From contig JARDVN010000001.1 of assembly GCA_028994555.1 (NCBI GenBank), positions 3,844,001-3,908,000 of the forward strand: a DNA stretch of 64,000 nucleotides. The letters are read 5' to 3'. The DNA is from Citrobacter amalonaticus. Its GTDB lineage: Bacteria; Pseudomonadota; Gammaproteobacteria; Enterobacterales; Enterobacteriaceae. How positions within the stretch are numbered: position 1 is the stretch's first letter; each line of letters begins with the position of its first letter. Below, piece by piece: positions 14,431 through 60,318 of the stretch. The translations under genes were made by a program, and so were the position numbers. Below the pieces are notes generated by a model that was given only the letters and a program-made list of their open reading frames with translations, was not told where the DNA came from and ran no database searches.

Positions 14431-16264
14431 TCAATGTTTCAACGACCAGAAGATCTTTTCTGCCAGACCTTGCGAAATACCCGGCACTTTTGCAATTTCT
14501 TCAACGCTGGCGTTACGTAATCCTTGCAAACCCCCCATATATTTCAACAACATTTGGCGACGTTTCGGCCCTACGCCTTCAATAGTCTCCAGCGTACTGG
14601 TGTTTTTCACCTTCGCCCTTTTTTTTACGGTGACCGCCAATAGCATGATCGTGTGACTCATCGCGGATATGCTGGATGACATGCAGCGCCGGCGAATCCG
14701 GCGGGAGACTGAACCCCTCGCCTTCGGGTTCAAAGAACAGCGTTTCCAGACCAGCTTTACGGTCAGCGCCTTTCGCAACGCCCAGCAGCAGAGGGTGATT
14801 TTTATCCCAGGGCACATCCAGCTCAGCAAAAACGGCCTTTGCCTGCCCCAGTTGCCCCTTTCCGCCATCGATCAGGATCACATCCGGAATCTTACTTTCT
14901 TCAATGGCCTTGCCATAACGACGACGCAGAACCTGGTTCATTGCCGCATAGTCGTCACCCGGCGTGATGCCGGTGATATTGTAGCGCCGGTATTCCGCTC
15001 GCAGCGGCCCGTTCGCATCAAAGACTACGCAGGATGCCACCGTCTGCTCGCCCATCGTATGGCTGATATCGAAACATTCCATCCGTTTGACCGCCGGCAA
15101 TTTCAGCACGGACGCCAGCGCCGTCAGACGTTGGGTAATCGTCGACTGCTGCAACAGTTTCGTCGTCAGTGCCGTGGCGGCATTGGTCCGCGCCAGCTTG
15201 AGGTAACGTGCGCGATCGCCGCGGGGTTTTGTCTGCACATTGATTCGGCGCCCGGCCAGTTCAGAAAGTGAATCTGCCAGTAGCGTTTTGTCATCCAGAG
15301 TGAAATCCAGCAGGATCTCACCAGGCAATGTGCGCATCTGGCTGCCCTGGAGGTAGAATTGCCCGACGAAGGTTTCCACCACTTCGCCCAGTTCAGTCCC
15401 TCCCGGCACTTTCGGGAAATAACTGCGGCTTCCCAGCACTTTCCCCTGGCGGATAAAGAGCACGTGTACACAGGCCATACCGGCATCGAACGCCACGCCG
15501 ATCACGTCCAGATCGTCACCCGCATTGGAAACAAACTGTTTCTCCGTCACCCGACGCACGGCCTGGATCTGATCGCGTATCCGCGCGGCCTCTTCGAACG
15601 CCAGATTTTGACTGGCCTTCTCCATCCGCGCGATCAGTTGGGTCAGGACCTGGTCGTCTTTACCGGATAAAAACAGCCGGACGTAGTCTACCTGCTGCGT
15701 ATACTCTTCTTCACTTACCAGTCCCTCGACGCAGGGCCCCAGGCAACGGCCAATCTGATACTGCAGACACGGTCGTGAGCGATTGCGATAAACGCTGTTT
15801 TCACACTGGCGGATCGGGAAAATCTTCTGTAATAGCGCCAGCGTTTCACGCACGGCATAGCCGTTGGGAAACGGCCCAAAGTATTCGCCACGAGTATGTT
15901 TCGCCCCACGGTGCATCGCCAGTCGGGGATGCGTGTCCGCGCTGAGAAAGATAAAGGGGTAAGATTTGTCGTCGCGCAGCAGCACGTTGTAGCGAGGTTG
16001 ATAAAGCTTGATGTAGTTGTGCTCAAGCAGCAACGCTTCTGTTTCGGTGTGCGTCACCGTCACATCGATTTGCTGAATGAGCGCCACCAGCGCTTCGGTC
16101 TTACGCGAAGCCAGGTTGCTGCGGAAATAACTGGAAAGCCGTTTTTTCAGGTCTTTCGCTTTACCCACATAGATGACCGTACCACCGGCATCATACATAC
16201 GATAAACGCCGGGTTGACTGGTTACGGTTTTTAGAAACGCTTTCGCGTCAAACTGATTACTCAC
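14431..16264 (-). CDS. uvrC: Excinuclease ABC subunit UvrC (one frame break)
   Basis: Repaired, 610 residues, exactly the E. coli length. UvrC makes the dual incision in nucleotide excision repair with UvrA and UvrB. Domains in order: GIY-YIG nuclease (residues about 15-95, [25 protein letters not shown]), a cysteine-rich stretch ([21 protein letters not shown]), the UvrB-binding UVR motif (about 200-240), the RNase H-like endonuclease half (ECFDISH... [10 protein letters not shown]) and C-terminal tandem HhH ([17 protein letters not shown]). The frame breaks at a T8 run (14619-14626); seven restores [12 protein letters not shown]. Overlaps the stop of uvrY by 4 bp, so the two are coupled. 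Confidence 0.95.
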
Positions 16265-30873: not shown

Positions 30874-31107
30874 ATGAAAAATATCGTTCCCGATTATCGC
30901 CTGGATATGGTCGGCGAGCCCTGCCCTTACCCGGCTGTGGCAACGCTGGAAGCGATGCCGCAACTGAAGAAGGGAGAAATTCTGGAAGTGGTTAGCGATT
31001 GTCCGCAGTCGATCAATAACATTCCGCTGGATGCGCGCAACCACGGTTACACCGTGCTCGATATTCAGCAGGATGGACCGACGATCCGTTATTTGATTCA
31101 GAAGTAA
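30874..31107 (+). CDS. yedF: YedF, TusA-family sulfur carrier protein
   Basis: A 77-residue protein of the TusA (SirA) family with the catalytic motif CPYPAVATLEAM (family CPxP), the cysteine that carries persulfide. The pairing with yedE suggests delivery of sulfur or selenium. It is the last intact backbone gene before the prophage. Intact. Confidence 0.95.
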   Translation: MKNIVPDYRLDMVGEPCPYPAVATLEAMPQLKKGEILEVVSDCPQSINNIPLDARNHGYTVLDIQQDGPTIRYLIQK

Positions 31108-31111
31108 CGGT

Positions 31112-31192
31112 TTGCCGGATGGCATCGACACCTTATTCGGTCTACAGGATGTGTGAATTGTAGGCCGGATAAGCGCCAGCGCCATCCGGCAC
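31112..31192. repeat. REP/BIME palindromic repeat pair
   Basis: Two inverted REP-like units (TGCCGGATGGCATCG... and GTAGGCCGGATAAGCGCCAG...CATCCGGCA) downstream of yedF, the common enterobacterial BIME arrangement. Confidence 0.85.
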
Positions 31193-31392
31193 TCAAACCT
31201 ACACCTGCATCGACATCATATGACCATGTATTTTTCATAAACGACAAAGATCGTCCAAGAGCGCACCAAATAACAGATGGTTGCAGTCGTCGAAAACTTC
31301 AGTCGTCTAAGTTCACCTTAGAACGAGTGACGTTTTATGCCCCACCCATGCCCCATCACCTATACTTTCAGTCTGAAGACTGGAGGTTTCCT

Positions 31393-31407
31393 ATGTGTGG
31401 ACGATCT
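31393..31407 (+). pseudogene. yedK: Truncated start of yedK (SRAP/HMCES) at the prophage junction
   Basis: Downstream of yedF, an ATG preceded by GGAGG encodes MCGR, the invariant YedK N terminus with catalytic Cys2. After that the reading departs from YedK (expected MCGRFAQ, seen MCGRSTQKPAVKRV then stop). In E. coli yedK follows this interval. I infer that the prophage inserted within the first codons of yedK, so this is the left junction (attL). The core cannot be delimited without attR, which is outside the window. Confidence 0.65.
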
Positions 31408-31411
31408 ACAC

Positions 31412-31437
31412 AAAAACCCGCAGTTAAGCGGGTTTGA
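31412..31437 (-). terminator. Terminator at the prophage left end
   Basis: AAACCCGC/GCGGGTTT hairpin with T5 on the minus strand, 16 nt past the stop of the ORF6N gene. Confidence 0.75.
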
Positions 31438-31452
31438 GTTGTCGACACTACA

Positions 31453-32226
31453 TTAAAACAGCTTGCGAAGATCTACGTCATACACAGCAAGCCATGCCTC
31501 ACGCGGCCAGGACTTCACTGTTCCGTAGGTCTCGTCAGGAACATCCTTCGGTGACAATCCATTTGCAGCGCACCATTTCTTCATGGGCCAATGGCCTACA
31601 AGTTTTCCAGTAGCTCTGTGGACAGCCTTTATAGTGGCGTGCTTCCTGCTCTCACCAAGCTTTTCAGCTAATGCGTTAGCCTTGCGCTTTTCAGCGGAAG
31701 CGGTAGCCATTGCTGTAGCCTCTCTCTTTTCAGAGATCCAAAGCTTCTCTTTCACAGCCCGGTCACGCTGCTCGGTGATGATGCGGTTTTCCTTAACTTT
31801 TACCAGCAGGTCTTCAAGCGCAGCTTCATAAGTAAGCGGGATACCAACCACTGGAGTTGGTCGGAAATACGAGTCTTCCAGACGCTCGAAGAAAGACCAT
31901 GCTTCATCCGTGTCAACAATCTTAGACATACGTGCCGCGCCCTTCTCAGTCCAAAAAACAACGGAGCGGGCTTTGCTCGAAATTTGTGCGTGACTGTTAG
32001 TCACTCGCAAATCCTTCAACTCCTGGCCTTTAATGGTGAAGATGTGAATGCCTTCAATGAAGCGACTAGCGTTGCGTGACAGGTTTTTCCGAATGTTAGC
32101 CTCGTCAGAGCCATAACCTGCGGCCAGTGTTTCTGTTGTAACAACTCGCAGTCTCTTCCATTCAATCACCGGCAACGGTTGGGGATCGACATTTCGCTCT
32201 TGAACTGCTAAATTTAATGACGTCAT
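31453..32226 (-). CDS. ORF6N-domain phage protein, antirepressor-like
   Basis: A 257-residue protein. Residues about 20-110 match the ORF6N domain found in phage antirepressor and KilA-related proteins (PLPVIEWKRLRVVTTETLAAGYGSDEANIRKNLSRN, then FIEGIHIF). A charged alanine-rich coiled-coil stretch (about 140-210) and a distinct C-terminal domain with Trp-rich elements follow. The ATG at 32226 has AAGGA 8 nt upstream; the frame to 32298 lacks one. It is the gene nearest the attachment site. Function is not proven; DNA binding or antirepression is inferred from the domain. Confidence 0.7.
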   Translation of the reverse strand: MTSLNLAVQERNVDPQPLPVIEWKRLRVVTTETLAAGYGSDEANIRKNLSRNASRFIEGIHIFTIKGQELKDLRVTNSHAQISSKARSVVFWTEKGAARMSKIVDTDEAWSFFERLEDSYFRPTPVVGIPLTYEAALEDLLVKVKENRIITEQRDRAVKEKLWISEKREATAMATASAEKRKANALAEKLGESRKHATIKAVHRATGKLVGHWPMKKWCAANGLSPKDVPDETYGTVKSWPREAWLAVYDVDLRKLF

Positions 32227-32337
32227 TAGTTGGATCCTTCTGACAAGTTTCAATGGAAGCCGGTAGCTCGTAACTATCGGCTTTTCTATTTGCATCACTG
32301 CAAAATTCCTTTCCCGTATGAGAAAACGTTTTTCCAG

Positions 32338-33009
32338 TTACTGTCCCCCCCATGGTTGTTCCTTGATGTGATTAGTTTCCCGCTTGAGAATTTCGCGAGA
32401 TTTATTTATCCCACGACTGTAATTAGTGCCAATTGAGCAGAAGCGCGGAGACAAACGATGATCTGCGACTACCAGTAACGGATGTACTTCACGGCATGCC
32501 TCATACATCACTGCAGCAGAACGCCATAGATATGCCAGGGTGCATAATTCATCGTCGGTAAACTGCTTGGCGATCGGTGAGTGCTGAATTTCGCGGTCCA
32601 ATACATCAAGCACCCAACGGCGGAATTCTTTGGCCTTATTCGTGGTTGAAAACATCGCAATTAAGTGAGCGCCGCGAAGTGAGAAAACACGGACAGGGAT
32701 ATCGACCACGCCAGTCTTTCTAACGACACTCATTTTGAGGGTCGTTGACATATGTTCTGTAAATTCATCGTGATAACGACTGAATATTTGCGTAACTGCA
32801 TCTGACTTCTTGTAACCGAGAGCCGCTGCTAACTCAGATGAAGTGAGCCATGTTTCACCCGCATGTTTAACTGGGTGGAAAGATGTCTGCTGGAAAGTTA
32901 ACTCGTAATTCTGTACACTGTTCATGTCGATATTTCCTACGCGGTTATTTTCGATAGAGGCCCGGTTAGTGTTAGCGCACTTCTGGGCTTCGCTGTTTTT
33001 ACTGGACAT
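32338..33009 (-). CDS. Bro-N-domain antirepressor (Ant-like)
   Basis: A 223-residue phage protein. Residues about 36-130 resemble the BRO-N domain of phage antirepressors (VKHAGETWLTSSELAAALGYKKSDAVTQIFSRY, VRVFSLRGAHLIAMFSTTNKAKEFRRWVLDVLD). The C-terminal half is unlike known domains. Start at 33009 overlaps the upstream Arc-like gene, with GAGGGAAG about 7 nt before it; an alternative ATG at 32925 also has a Shine-Dalgarno. The position directly after an Arc-like gene is the P22 arc-ant arrangement, so the role is probably inactivation of the lytic repressor (inference). Confidence 0.72.
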   Translation of the reverse strand: MSSKNSEAQKCANTNRASIENNRVGNIDMNSVQNYELTFQQTSFHPVKHAGETWLTSSELAAALGYKKSDAVTQIFSRYHDEFTEHMSTTLKMSVVRKTGVVDIPVRVFSLRGAHLIAMFSTTNKAKEFRRWVLDVLDREIQHSPIAKQFTDDELCTLAYLWRSAAVMYEACREVHPLLVVADHRLSPRFCSIGTNYSRGINKSREILKRETNHIKEQPWGGQ

Positions 33010-33157
33010 GCATCTTCCCTCTGAACTTCAAAGCCCACACCAAAGCCTGCACCAAAGCTGCGTTCTCAGATAACCCTTCCTCTTCAGCAATACGCTTAAA
33101 TTCTTCCTTCAATTTCTGCGGGTAACGCAGGGTCGTTTTTGCTTCATTTTTTTCCAC
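32999..33157 (-). CDS. Arc-like ribbon-helix-helix repressor
   Basis: A 52-residue protein on a GTG start, with AAGGAG 6 nt upstream. Sequence reads VEKNEAKTTLRYPQKLK then EEFKRIAEEEGLSENAALV, fitting the ribbon-helix-helix fold: a beta-strand TLRYPQ, helix A, a turn and helix B. The stop overlaps the start of the Bro-N gene by 11 bp, so the two are co-translated. By analogy with P22 Arc it should repress its own operon, including the antirepressor, from the operators upstream. Below the size most ORF searches report. Confidence 0.7.
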   Translation of the reverse strand: MEKNEAKTTLRYPQKLKEEFKRIAEEEGLSENAALVQALVWALKFRGKMHVQ

Positions 33158-33174
33158 TTCTCACTCCTTTCTTT

Positions 33175-33238
33175 ATGATGGCATTATGCCTTGAAAGCAG
33201 AATGCCATCATTGAATATAAATAGCAATATGCCATCAT
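33175..33238. promoter_or_regulatory. Divergent operator region with three 10-bp repeats
   Basis: ATGATGGCAT at 33175-33184 and its exact complement ATGCCATCAT at 33202-33211 and 33229-33238, with GGCATTATGCC (33180-33190) a perfect palindrome around one base. The two inverted copies are 27 bp apart. The array lies between the divergent Arc-like and Mnt-like genes, the place where ribbon-helix-helix repressors bind. Sites are seen; binding is inferred. Confidence 0.7.
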
Positions 33239-33259
33239 CTCTTTTTTTGAGGTGATGTT

Positions 33260-33655
33260 ATGGCTGAAAAACAGGTTAAAGATTACGAAAAATTTGTTGT
33301 GCGCTTCCCTGATGGCATGCGCGATGTTGTGGCGGAAAGAGCCAAGCGTAATGGCAGGTCGATGAACTCAGAAATAATCGACATCATCTCCAATGCAGTA
33401 TCTCAGCCAGCATTAGCGCAGGAAGGAATTGAGTTTTTGCTTAGTCTGGTAGATCCTAACGAGGTTGAAAAGCTGTCAGCGAATGAAAGAAAGCGGGCCA
33501 AGAATCTTCTTGTAGATGCAGCGGCCATTATGGCGCAACGACTGGAATCAGAAAGCAAAGATTTGAGAGTGCTCTTGTACTTGGCTTCAAAAGATAGCCC
33601 TCTTAATGAGAACAAAAAAGCCCACCTGAGTGTGACGCAACTATTGAGATGTTAA
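33260..33655 (+). CDS. Mnt/Arc-family ribbon-helix-helix repressor
   Basis: A 131-residue protein. Residues about 8-50 form a ribbon-helix-helix (EKFVVRFPDGMRDVVAERA then KRNGRSMNSEIIDIISNA) containing the NGRSMNSE motif shared with P22 Mnt and Arc. The C-terminal 75 residues are helical and charged and may serve oligomerisation, as Mnt's C terminus does. GAGGTGATGTT precedes the ATG at 33260. It is divergent from the Arc-like/antirepressor genes across the 10-bp repeats, as mnt is from arc-ant in P22. Likely represses the antirepressor during lysogeny (inference). Confidence 0.75.
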   Translation: MAEKQVKDYEKFVVRFPDGMRDVVAERAKRNGRSMNSEIIDIISNAVSQPALAQEGIEFLLSLVDPNEVEKLSANERKRAKNLLVDAAAIMAQRLESESKDLRVLLYLASKDSPLNENKKAHLSVTQLLRC

Positions 33656-33658
33656 AGA

Positions 33659-33693
33659 GCACCTACTGGCGTGATTAAAACGCCTGCAGGTGC
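33659..33693 (+). terminator. Hairpin after the Mnt-like gene
   Basis: Nested inverted repeat GCACCT/AGGTGC with inner GGCGT/ACGCC around an A+T loop, 4 nt after the stop. No T-tract, so its function as a terminator is uncertain. Confidence 0.4.
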
Positions 33694-33806
33694 TGAAAGA
33701 TAGGGTTGATTATGCAGAAATTACCCCTCAGGTAATTTGAATAGATATGAACATCTGAGATAGCACAAAATGCAAATCCACCCGAGAGGGTCATCAAGGA
33801 GCAGGC

Positions 33807-34019: not shown

Positions 34020-34343
34020 TTAGATCACCGGGCATCTATCATCACCCAGCGCCCGGTTGATGAAGTACGTTACTCGACCAATCACTACCACCTCTTCCAG
34101 CGCGTTCCCTTCTATCGCCTCACCATCTTCAGATATCAGTGCCTTGCCAGCCAGTTTTACAAACTGCATTTCACCATCTGCAAGAACGGCGAGTGTATCT
34201 CCCTGTCGCGCATTCAGCGACACGTCGATAACCGCGTATCCCTCTGACGTTTCCATGATTCGACTATTCATTGATATCCCGCAAAACATATCGACTGTTA
34301 AGCGCCTTGAAAGATAATCAGCAGCCGGTGATGGAAATCCCAT
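34020..34343 (-). CDS. UmuD-like LexA/S24-fold protein, short form
   Basis: A 107-residue protein that starts MGFPSPAADYLSRRL, matching the UmuD segment just after its Cys-Gly self-cleavage site (CGFPSPAADY), but here an ATG replaces the upstream region. GISM aligns with UmuD GDSM (catalytic Ser) and ADGEMQFVKL with VDGEFTVKKL (catalytic Lys), with a shortened intervening loop. This resembles a UmuD'-like form made directly by translation. It starts right after the preceding gene and shares its LexA-box promoter. A role in SOS mutagenesis or in antirepression is possible; neither is shown. Confidence 0.65.
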   Translation of the reverse strand: MGFPSPAADYLSRRLTVDMFCGISMNSRIMETSEGYAVIDVSLNARQGDTLAVLADGEMQFVKLAGKALISEDGEAIEGNALEEVVVIGRVTYFINRALGDDRCPVI

Positions 34344-34344
34344 G

Positions 34345-34584
34345 TCATAGACCTCCGTTAGGGTTATAGAGCATGAACAAACGCTCCTCACCTTCAGTAG
34401 GCGAAATGTCCTTGAACGTGCTTATGCTGGCCTCTATCCAGGCATTTGCATCACGCAAAGAGAAATCCCAATTCACTTTCTTCAGTTCCCGCACAAAATC
34501 AACGGTTCGTAGTGTCCTGCGACCGCTTGGCTCAACAACTACAGCCGACCGGAATGCAGCCTCAATGTCATAACGTCTTGGCAT
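34345..34584 (-). CDS. Small SOS-operon protein, unknown family
   Basis: A 79-residue protein (start MPRRYDIEAAFRSAVVVEP, including WDFSLRDANAWIEASIS). No family is recognised with confidence. Its start is 15 bp downstream of a LexA box, and the UmuD-like gene begins 1 nt after its stop, so it is the first gene of an SOS-induced pair. The pairing suggests it partners the UmuD-like protein. Confidence 0.6.
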   Translation of the reverse strand: MPRRYDIEAAFRSAVVVEPSGRRTLRTVDFVRELKKVNWDFSLRDANAWIEASISTFKDISPTEGEERLFMLYNPNGGL

Positions 34585-34598
34585 ACGTACCTCACAAT

Positions 34599-34618
34599 TA
34601 CTGTTTATATATACAGTA
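34599..34618 (-). promoter_or_regulatory. LexA (SOS) box
   Basis: TACTGTTTATATATACAGTA: CTGT-N8-ACAG with the A+T-rich alternating centre and flanking TA, one base from the ideal 20-bp SOS box. It lies 15 bp before the start of the two-gene operon. Confidence 0.88.
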
Positions 34619-34707
34619 TATTTTATAACAAGTATCGATCAAGTAGTGTTTTGAATGGTTGAAACTGCTACTATTACAATTTACTTTTGTTTCATAAGAT
34701 TACGGAT

Positions 34708-36602
34708 ATGAATATAAGATATAGGGCTGACATAGACGGGCTAAGGGCTCTAGCTGTTCTGTTGGTTTTTGCTTATCATCTGAAATTTTCAGCACTGAGC
34801 GGAGGATTTGTTGGAGTAGATGTTTTTTTTTGTTATATCTGGGTTTCTCATAACTGGAATTGTGATAAGGTCGATTGACAGCGATTCATTTTCTTTTCTT
34901 GATTTTTTCAATAGAAGAATTAAGCGTATCGTACCTAACGTCTTTGTAGTAGCTACTTGCTCGCTAATTGCTGGATGGTTCGTTCTCTTACCGAATGATT
35001 ACTCATCACTTATACAGAGCTACTTCTATACATCTGTCTATGCAGCAAATTTCTATTTTCTTGATGCTACCGGCGCATACTTTGCTCATGCAACAGATGA
35101 AATGCCTCTTCTGCACATGTGGTCTTTAGCTGTTGAGGAGCAATTCTATTTTATTTGGCCAGTAATTCTCTTCATAACATTAAAATTTTATAAGGGAAAT
35201 AAACTAGGTATAATAACACTTTTACTTGCGGTGTTATCATTCGTATTTTCTGAAAGAATGGCTCATACCGATAGTGGATTTGCATACTACATGCTACACA
35301 CAAGATCTGGAGGATTAATTCTTGGAGCATCACTTGCTATACTGCAGCGTGACTATAAAGTGGTAAGGGAGTTTAATTCATGGTTTATGGTTTTAACAGG
35401 AACCATATTGATAATATGGACTTCTTTTTCTTTAACTCCAGACTCTATCTTTCCTGGAATAAACTCCGCCCTCCCATGTTTTGGCGCTTTCTTTGTCATT
35501 GCTGGCGGATCCGGCTTTAAGACAAATTTCGCATCAAAAATTTATAGTTTGAAGCCATTTGCATTGATTGGTTTAATCTCATTTTCTGTGTATTTGTGGC
35601 ATTGGCCTTTTATCGCGTTTTCCTCTTATCTTGGAATACTTGACTCACATTTAGTTAAGGTGTCTATATTTATATTAACCATTTCTCTATCCGTTCTGAG
35701 CCTAAAAATGATCGAAACTCCGATAAGAAAGTCATCGATTAAATTCTTTAGGTCCTTCACTACAATAAACCTATCATTTATTGTATTTTCTGCAATAGTT
35801 CTTACCATTTCATCACATACTAATGGAATGTCATTTAGGCTTAACAATGGAACGTTAAATGCAAAAAGTGTTGACGTTAGGTTCGCTGGACTTGATGAGG
35901 GTTGGTGTCATGTAAGCGCAGAAGGAGTTACAAAAATACCATTTAGCAAAAATATGGAGCATTGCCATATTGGCGACAAGAATGGAAAGAAGAAAGCAAT
36001 TTATATAGGTGATTCTAATGCAGGACATTTTGCTCCATTTGTAGATGAACTTGCAAGAAAAGCATCAGTTAAAGTAAGACAACTTAGCACTCAGGGTTGC
36101 TGGCCTACATTAAAACCAGAGGCTTGGGGTGAAAATCCTGACGTATGCCTCAAGTTCAGGCAAGAAATATTACGTTCCATACCTAATGATAAGTACGATT
36201 ATATAATCGTTGCTAACAATTGGGAAAGAGATAGTAGATTCACATCATATAAAACAGAAGACTACAATTCATTATTTGGATTTTATTCCAAGCACGCAAA
36301 AAAAGGTCATTGTATTGGCCCAGATGCCAGAGTTTAGAAGGAATCCTGCCGAGTGCTTCCGTCGTAAGCAATGCACGCCAAATGATGACTTCCAGTATCT
36401 TCCTGCAATGCATGATGCTAACTCTATCATTGGTGCAGCAGCGGGAAAATATAAGAATGTTGAGGTAATAGATGCATCATCTTACATGATTAGGAACGGA
36501 AAATATTCACCGTTTGCTATGGGATATCTCATGTACCATGACACTGGACATATTTCTATAAAAGGTATGAAGTGGATTGTACAGCAATATCAAAAAAGAT
36601 AA
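34708..36602 (+). CDS. O-antigen-type acyltransferase with SGNH domain (OafA-like; two frame breaks)
   Basis: Repaired, about 630 residues. The N-terminal about 370 residues are an acyltransferase-3 membrane domain with ten or so helices: family start [15 protein letters not shown], then [33 protein letters not shown], and [10 protein letters not shown]. The C-terminal about 220 residues are a SGNH hydrolase-like domain with GDSNAGH (Ser block) and DTGHIS (catalytic Asp-His). This AT3-SGNH layout is that of OafA-type O-acetylases of lipopolysaccharide. Frames break at T9 (34823-34831) and A7 (36298-36304); one base fewer at each restores DVFFVISGF and HAKKVIVLA. Strongly A+T-rich, opposite to the late genes, a typical lysogenic-conversion gene. 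Confidence 0.88.
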
Positions 36603-36626
36603 TAAAAATCCATTCAATTAATTTTT

Positions 36627-36646
36627 AAGGCCGCAAACGCGGCCTT
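36627..36646. terminator. Bidirectional terminator between acyltransferase and tail spike
   Basis: AAGGCCGC/GCGGCCTT hairpin with a 4-nt loop, symmetric A/T flanks, between two convergent stops. Confidence 0.85.
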
Positions 36647-36649
36647 AAT

Positions 36650-59508: not shown

Positions 59509-60318
59509 TCATCGCGTCACTTTTGAGAGAACAGAATCGGCAAAAGACTCCTGTTTGTGGCATTCACTTACCAGCGCTTCGAAAAGTGGCTGAAGCTGCT
59601 CGTATGCTGATGTTTTTTTTATATCCGTTACGGTTCTGATGCCTTCCAGAACTACCGAGAACTTTAATCTCGCATAACCACGCCCGCCGCAGCGAACGCA
59701 GCATTTCATCACTGGAACGCCCTGGAGATCACTTTCCTTCTTGTCCAGCACCTTGCCCTTCCCGTGGCAGCGACACGAATTGCTGATAACACCCTTTCCG
59801 TTACACGACTTGCATTTAACCTTGACCACTTCTCGTACTGAGTTCCATTTCTCCCAGTCACCCGGGCCAACGGCGCGTGACATTTTTGCCCATGATGGTG
59901 CTTTCCCCCACGGGAAGGTAACTTTATTAGTAAATACCTCTGCTTCAGTAAAACCTGTTCCATCGCAACAATCGCACCGACGAACGCTTGCTGCGCTGCG
60001 GGCATAATCCTGATATGCAAAAGCACACAAAATTTCGAGAACTCGCCGACGGATTTCTTCATTGAGTTCTGAAACTGATTTGAAGCGTCGGCAAAGTTCA
60101 ACGGATGATTCATAAAGCGCCTCCATTGCCCGATCCGGGCTGCTGATGCCAATTTTTGCAAGGTACAAATCGAATCCAAACCCACACTTGGCGTTAACCA
60201 GTCCAAGCGCGGCCATAACATCAGTTCCGGTCAGGTTGTCGGTGGCAGTCGCCCTCGAGGAGTCACTGAACATCGGTGATTTTGGCGCGAAATATTTAGC
60301 GATTGATTCGAGATTCAT
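59509..60318 (-). CDS. Late antitermination protein Q, zinc-finger type
   Basis: A 269-residue protein that lets RNA polymerase pass terminators upstream of the lysis and head genes. Zinc-binding DnaJ-like repeats are visible: CDCCDGTGF (about 117), CKSCNGKGVISNSCRCHGKGK (about 168-190) and CCVRCGGRGY (about 205). Its position after nin genes and before lysis is the lambdoid order. Intact. Confidence 0.85.
   Translation of the reverse strand: MNLESIAKYFAPKSPMFSDSSRATATDNLTGTDVMAALGLVNAKCGFGFDLYLAKIGISSPDRAMEALYESSVELCRRFKSVSELNEEIRRRVLEILCAFAYQDYARSAASVRRCDCCDGTGFTEAEVFTNKVTFPWGKAPSWAKMSRAVGPGDWEKWNSVREVVKVKCKSCNGKGVISNSCRCHGKGKVLDKKESDLQGVPVMKCCVRCGGRGYARLKFSVVLEGIRTVTDIKKTSAYEQLQPLFEALVSECHKQESFADSVLSKVTR

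Follow-up and report, generated by a model that had tools for sequence, protein, structure and literature searches.

A predicted sar antisense RNA in a probable immI-type cassette of a Citrobacter amalonaticus prophage

The sar RNA of phage P22 is a classic antisense regulator. It belongs to immI, a region in which two divergent ribbon-helix-helix (RHH) repressor genes, mnt and arc, accompany the antirepressor gene ant. An earlier note on a 64,000-nucleotide stretch of the Citrobacter amalonaticus genome (the window) had described a similar switch near the attachment site of a siphovirus-type prophage. How much of the P22 design does this module hold, and how far does the design reach? We conclude that the module is very probably an immI-type second immunity cassette, homologous to that of P22 in plan and, at its core of sar and the ant start, also in sequence, with Mnt, Arc, Ant and sar in the roles they have in P22. 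The mnt/arc/ant design itself is known from P22; what is new here is the predicted sar gene, previously unnoticed at this locus.

Genes of the module and the prophage around it

The repressor and antirepressor genes lie at the coordinates and on the strands that the earlier note gave, apart from the start of ant. The mnt-like repressor gene (33260–33655, plus strand) encodes 131 residues: an RHH head at about residues 8–51 with the contact strand E-K-F-V-V-R-F, and a variable helical tail. Its product matches the Pfam Arc family (PF03869) at E = 2.8e-17; among PDB entries it matches AmrZ best (3qoq, 1.7e-7), then Mnt (1mnt, 1.8e-5). Facing it is the arc-like repressor gene (32999–33157, minus strand; GTG start, 52 residues), which matches PF03869 at 8e-4, its 19.6 bits falling slightly short of the cut-off (20.4 bits), and, at 2e-9, PHROG 582, ‘Arc-like repressor’. 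Downstream of arc, the ant gene (32338–32925, minus strand; 195 residues) has its probable ATG at 32925, with AGGA upstream. The P22 Ant domain is present as its P22_AR_C tail (3.1e-13), and its N-terminal half is Bro-N (3e-10).

Beyond ant lies a second antirepressor-like gene, of ORF6N type (31453–32226, minus strand; PF10543 at 7.8e-18, phrog_4936 at 2.3e-93), with a probable ATG at 32226 in a reading frame open from a GTG at 32298. It possibly belongs to the arc–ant operon. By sequence, Ant and the ORF6N protein gave weak PDB matches alone (E 0.6 and 0.03), which we took as chance, and a fold search of PDB with the Ant model (pTM 0.55) returned no match at E ≤ 0.001. Against BFVD the Ant model gave 42 matches at E ≤ 0.001, antirepressor and Bro-N proteins among them, which agrees with the family and says nothing more.

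The late genes of the prophage run leftward to the module: a Q-like antiterminator (59509–60318), then genes for an endolysin, the portal and other parts of the head, followed by those for the tape measure, a tail protein and the tail spike. The module lies beyond the tail spike, as the earlier note had it, and, judged by its genes, the prophage is of lambdoid siphovirus type. The phage records that best cover the tail region are Enterobacter phages, with up to 37% of the query. On the other side, host synteny (amyA-yedD-yedE-yedF, ~82% to E. coli) extends as far as ~31107–31359. An ORF from 31394, without a Pfam match, reads as the first codons of yedK, and the junction between host and prophage appears to fall within the first codons of this yedK-like gene, at ~31394–31440. 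The attL of the earlier note is a tentative label. An attachment core was not found from the available prophage ends, and three related prophage records place the integrase at the far end from the module, which by the lambda convention would make the module end the int-distal one. By analogy with related prophages, the phage's own repressor would lie outside the window.

Between module and tail genes we also observed an acyltransferase gene of the O-antigen-acetylase type (34687–36602, plus strand; Acyl_transf_3 plus SGNH) whose sequence is divided among three overlapping frames. A run of nine T (34823–34831) lies near the first of the breaks. The breaks could reflect decay or phase variation.

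The antisense strand of the arc–ant junction

The gap between arc and ant is predicted to hold a sar homologue on the opposite strand (~32926–33001, plus strand). This RNA would span the arc–ant junction and the ant ribosome site and form two stem-loops, the second terminator-like, with its U-run opposite the TAA stop of arc. Rfam RF00262 aligns over its full length (1–68 of 68) at 32927–32994 on the plus strand with 27.8 bits, below the gathering score of 43; our covariance model R1, which has the window among its seeds, gives 77.9 bits. The sar strand folds more stably (-26.8 kcal/mol, z -3.3) than the mRNA strand (-14.6, z -1.3), and in P22 the corresponding values are -29.5 (z -5.3) and -21.0 (z -2.2). 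Aligned to P22 and to six further phages or prophages, the window has the same stem of the GAAGCCC...GGGCTTC type beside the arc stop codon, and its sar stands in the same relation to an ant ATG, here 32925.

The annotated P22 genome (NC_002371) provides the reference for this layout: arc at 14861–15022, sar antisense at 15021–15090, ant at 15091–15993, Psar at 15097–15125 and mnt divergent. The 5' end of P22 sar is the base before the ant ATG, and its promoter lies within the first ant codons. At the same place in the window we predict a Psar (TGGAAA, 17 nt, TACACT; 32891–32919, plus strand). Its -10 box is widely kept. From 123 sar matches we removed six that were not at an ant start, which left 92 distinct upstream stretches, 82 of them with a CATG anchor; all 82 have TAnnnT at the P22 position, compared with 58 of 82 in the next best register. 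TAnnnT is kept whatever ant codon results (GTA, ATA and others).

The RNA structure is conserved by compensatory change. In 44 distinct rows, aligned to the model and including one row away from an ant start (L084), 93 two-sided pair-keeping cells were counted, against 27.5 ± 4.0 after shuffling and at most 13 after sliding. Wobble pairs in the same fitted alignment comprised 87 G.U and 1 A.C on the sar strand. A sequence-only alignment of 91 distinct sequences, with the same six matches removed, gave 134 G.U to 1 A.C in the outer stem. Other parts are less regular (206 to 24 over the whole terminator hairpin, 116 to 53 in the 5' hairpin), and the 5' hairpin is weakly conserved; the second stem-loop is of the intrinsic-terminator type. 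Since G.U pairs are tolerated almost solely on the sar strand, the folded RNA is that of the antisense strand, and we rejected a hairpin acting in the mRNA.

The earlier note had begun ant at 33009, and this suggests a different reading of the gap: it could encode the N-terminus of a longer Ant, so that protein conservation would explain it with no antisense RNA. Of 38 distinct viral leaders, 35 do keep the ant frame open across the gap; a fair ribosome site accompanies the ATG at 33009, and the six annotated relatives are all given the long start. Against this stand the covariation of the hairpin with its strand-specific wobble, P22 itself, which has no open frame there and an annotated sar, and the pattern of substitutions. 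The codon-phase comparison drew on 60 loci with 38 distinct leaders, all of them viral apart from the window. Among 31 distinct leaders of 78 nt, changes were spread evenly over the three phases (672/763/750; 0.31/0.35/0.34), whereas ant codons 4–12 showed a clear phase signal (108/83/381; 0.19/0.15/0.67); the 75-nt class, with four leaders and counts of 3/6/9, is too small to tell. We therefore rejected conservation of the gap as coding sequence and regard the longer Ant as very improbable. Because the leader lacks codon phase and the predicted sar lies there, database ant starts upstream of sar are probably wrong, as is 33009, and Ant probably starts at 32925.

The original immI-like reading is strengthened by the predicted sar-type RNA, by its predicted promoter, placed as in P22, and by a gene order that matches the P22 annotation; by sequence, the module is closer to P22, and holds more of its parts, than first described. 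It shares with P22 immI the divergent RHH repressors, the arc–ant operon, a predicted sar over the ant start with Psar inside ant, and P22_AR_C. It differs in the Bro-N head of Ant (P22 Ant aligns at 21%), a longer Mnt-like tail, different operators and the extra ORF6N gene. The setting differs too: P22, a podovirus, has its immI between gene 16 and the tailspike gene 9, whereas the window module lies beyond the tail spike at the end of a siphovirus-type prophage.

Candidate operators and the Mnt-like repressor

The two repressor genes are separated by 102 bp (33158–33259). As reported earlier, they diverge across three copies of a repeat: the window has three exact copies of ATGATGGCAT and no more, each of them in this gap (33175–33184, plus; 33202–33211, minus; 33229–33238, minus). 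With one mismatch allowed the word is not enriched across the window (7 found, 6.3 expected), so the evidence is its clustering in the gap. In 2,000 dinucleotide shuffles, one had any 10-mer three times within the 102 bp, and we rejected chance as the source of the repeats. The repeat is part of a longer 16-bp site, ATGATGGC-N5-GC(C/T), which occurs three times in the window, in the gap only. We regard these sites as putative operators: the copy nearest arc (33175–33190, plus strand) ends in GCC, and the middle copy (33196–33211, minus strand) and the one nearest mnt (33223–33238, minus strand) end in GCT. Their sequences are GGCATTATGCC, GGCATTCTGCT and GGCATATTGCT. A tentative Pant (TTGCTA-17-CATTCT; 33199–33227, minus strand) overlaps them; it was read by eye, matches the consensus weakly and was absent from the consensus scan.

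The presence of P22's own operators in the gap was rejected. The best matches to Oarc and Omnt in the gap were 12/21 and 11/23, no better than shuffles (206/500 and 379/500). A closer parallel is AmrZ of Pseudomonas aeruginosa, which contacts two GGC half-sites through Lys18, Val20 and Arg22 and whose amrZ1 site is GGCAAAACGCC (PMC3325190). The head of the window's Mnt-like protein has K-V-R at these contact places, and the window sites have the AmrZ spacing, GGC-N5-GC(C/T). AmrZ itself is a regulator of alginate and motility and not a phage immunity repressor. The structure model of the Mnt-like protein has a long helix at 74–111 (pLDDT 71.6, pTM 0.39, low confidence).

Sites and heads go together in other modules as well. 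Among 63 distinct Mnt/Arc pairs, with the palindromic GGC-N5-GCC scored once per strand, GGC-N5-GCY sites were found in all three modules with K-V-R heads (the window, L111 from Intestinirhabdus, and L103) and in one of the 60 others (L098). The operator block is almost identical in the window, L111 and L103, while the flanks differ. Operator words track the Mnt head (partial r 0.26, 0/500 permutations) above Arc (0.09, 5/500); this comparison reduced 68 distinct modules with gaps of 80–165 bp to the 63 pairs, left out P22 and GF-2, and followed a start assignment that had dropped 2 of 123 sar matches for want of a start codon. From the likeness to AmrZ we infer that the Mnt-like protein recognises the candidate sites in the AmrZ manner. 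The earlier suggestion that the specificity may be new is thus half right: P22 operators are unrecognisable in the gap, but L111 and L103 have the same site and the head matches AmrZ.

The weak Pant might be taken to mean that the module is a decayed, non-functional remnant, or a stray RHH unit of toxin–antitoxin type, and P22 immI has been called dispensable for lysis and lysogeny (PMC11016777). Every ORF of the module is intact, however, and conservation extends to the operators, sar and Psar. Three further prophages match the region at 98.2–99.5% DNA identity over 2.9–3.2 kb, and profile searches matched no toxin family among the module ORFs. We hold a remnant or stray unit to be very improbable.

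Proposed working and spread of the cassette

On the model of P22 and AmrZ, the immI-type cassette would work as follows. The Mnt-like repressor of a lysogen would occupy the three ATGATGGC-N5-GCY sites and hold the arc–ant promoter shut. In a cell without this repressor the promoter would fire, yielding Arc, as a brake, and Ant, which would disable CI-type repressors and tip the choice to lysis. sar RNA, made from the promoter inside the first ant codons, would pair with the ant ribosome site and limit Ant from transcripts reading through from upstream phage operons. Any effect on lysogeny, and any bistability, would follow the example of P22, where deletion of immI lowers the frequency of lysogeny (PMC11016777). 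P22 Ant is reported there to inhibit C2 and yet to be able to protect C2 from RecA-driven cleavage, so ‘Ant causes lysis’ may be too simple.

A different trigger can be considered. On the minus strand, two genes at 34020–34584 point toward arc–ant, a small one of PHROG 3893 and one that is UmuD-like (phrog_3469, 4.6e-43); at 34599–34618 lies TACTGTATATATAAACAGTA, a LexA-type box. The antirepressor might then be an SOS tool, with the UmuD-like operon reading into arc–ant and DNA damage raising Ant. The CTGT-N8-ACAG pattern at 34601–34616 overlaps a promoter-like TTGATC-16-TATACT just upstream of the genes aimed at arc–ant. The Gifsy and Fels antirepressors, proteins of another family, are said to be LexA-controlled. 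Prophage antirepressors that control induction are a precedent (PMC3121763). However, the window has two copies of CTGT-N8-ACAG where 0.7 are expected, and 18 of 100 shuffles also had two. The hairpin at 33657–33694 and the divergent mnt intervene, and a UmuD-like gene is annotated beside none of six related modules, where many genes are unnamed. A LexA box within the mnt–arc gap was rejected, as the strict pattern is absent there. We think an SOS role unlikely and return to read-through as the setting in which sar would act.

In the P22-like phage UAB_Phi20, sar is reported to inhibit translation from the late-promoter transcript (PMC12111858; the passage names arc). Co-oriented genes lie upstream of 89 of 95 sar-bearing modules, compared with 35 of 57 ant genes lacking sar, and downstream of 76 of 82 compared with 32 of 55; these counts come from 101 sar-bearing and 65 sar-less loci with enough flank, and their p values (~2e-6 each) are weakened by kinship. 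In the window, a palindromic 10-pair hairpin (36625–36648) lies between tail spike and arc, and a strong hairpin (33657–33694; -23.3 kcal/mol, z -5.7 on the minus strand, without a clear U-run) just after mnt. Both may block late read-through into arc, and with two hairpins between tail spike and arc the read-through idea is least secure here. In the host DNA downstream, the same-strand fraction is 0.10.

The sar covariance model was built from eight sequences (the window, P22 and six others), which match by construction. At E ≤ 0.1 it found 69 matches in 88 sources, and at E ≤ 1 it found 54 in 80 named genome contigs. Beside the best Ant match, 59 of the 80 viral-contig loci carried sar, as did 36 of the 80 genome loci. 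The loci were picked by Ant similarity and by a model that permits G.U, and they are kin by descent, so these counts are not independent. Of 12 sar-bearing loci tried, two (P22 and L073) reached the Rfam cut-off. The genome matches are mostly from Enterobacterales; others come from Gilliamella (L157, L158), Massilia (L145, E 2.7e-5), Oceanisphaera (L127, 5e-4) and Acinetobacter (L152, 0.005; L155, 0.84), as well as from two possible contaminants, the contigs L103 and L110, which carry the label Chryseobacterium. Within 2.6 kb, five of the 123 matches lack any Ant-like ORF, the best of the five being L084 (E 0.0034). Among the 113 with at least 1.9 kb downstream, 15 have no Ant-like ORF starting within 400 nt, and 29 have an ORF6N-like ORF within 2.6 kb. 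Five Xenorhabdus contigs (L117, L119, L130, L132, L114) each hold two to four plausible sar matches, which suggests arrays of immI-like modules.

Related modules occupy varied positions. SPN3UB and Klebsiella phi8.1 (L001, L006) carry theirs among the tail genes, and the myovirus-type GF-2 (L002) between tail and baseplate genes; others lie in lambdoid nin regions (L004, L005) and in P22-like late operons (L003, L007). This range favours the mosaic origin first proposed for the module. One P22-like E. coli prophage has two antirepressor modules back to back (L003:9730-14751), in one of which a LexA-family gene takes the place of the divergent mnt. We compared 39 Mnt-like proteins of types KQV, KPV, YPSQ, FPSQ and KEDP, taking the first 30 residues as head and residue 47 onward as tail. 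In a set that includes near-copies, so that pairs are not independent, 15 of 741 pairs had heads below 65% identity but tails of at least 60% (L025/L036: 0.63 and 0.99), and 37 had heads of at least 90% but tails below 35% (L006/L025: 1.0 and 0.29). The window's Mnt tail is common to L011 and L016, whose heads differ. Repressor heads, tails, operators and Arc genes appear reshuffled around a conserved sar/ant start across sipho-, myo- and podovirus-type genomes.

Parts of this picture have been described before. The ‘ant moron’ of P22-like phages is a fast-changing late-operon insert with ten types in sixteen genomes (eps34, PMC2629481); to those sixteen phages and prophages the present set adds sipho- and myovirus-type genomes, other positions, and sar. 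ImmI in Edwardsiella phage Edno5 is already published (PMC6372524) and, like the window module, places the mnt/arc/ant trio outside P22-like phages. The Arc of GF-2 is 69% identical to the window's, and its sar match (L002:19943-20017) is a model seed. The Edwardsiella phages differ from the window prophage in being of myovirus type and in carrying ImmI between their tail and baseplate genes, and sar goes unmentioned in the accessible text of PMC6372524. We found no account of sar outside P22-like phages among the literature matches listed, which, drawn largely from outside the subscription literature, are weak evidence of absence; a search for RF00262 found no paper, and the accessible text of PMC9836094 yielded nothing relevant.

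The three near-identical prophages share a 100% identical Ant segment with the window. Their CI-type proteins are all of the S24 family, with 29% identity in one pair and no confident alignment in the other two. Nearly the same Ant beside such dissimilar proteins fits a broad antirepressor, as P22 Ant is reported to be (PMC3121763). The trans-acting Gifsy and Fels antirepressors have the kind of target proposed for Ant, namely prophage repressors, and some of them act across prophages; the main text of that paper does not contain the words arc, mnt or Bro-N.

We lean, if only slightly, towards a broader picture in which immI is a widespread combinatorial cassette. Around a core of sar, Psar and the ant start, Mnt heads and tails, operators, Arc and Ant domains would be swapped in all three tail types to give many private second-immunity codes; sar would be kept through read-through operons, and Ant would be broad enough for very different CI-type repressors. 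With 91 distinct, covarying sar relatives in hand, one can ask why an antisense RNA on an antirepressor gene is retained in phages. The repressor–operator pairs form a natural code of second-immunity specificity that can be compared with one solved RHH–DNA complex, that of AmrZ. Finally, three prophages with nearly the same Ant and very different CI-type proteins make the promiscuity reported for P22 Ant directly testable.
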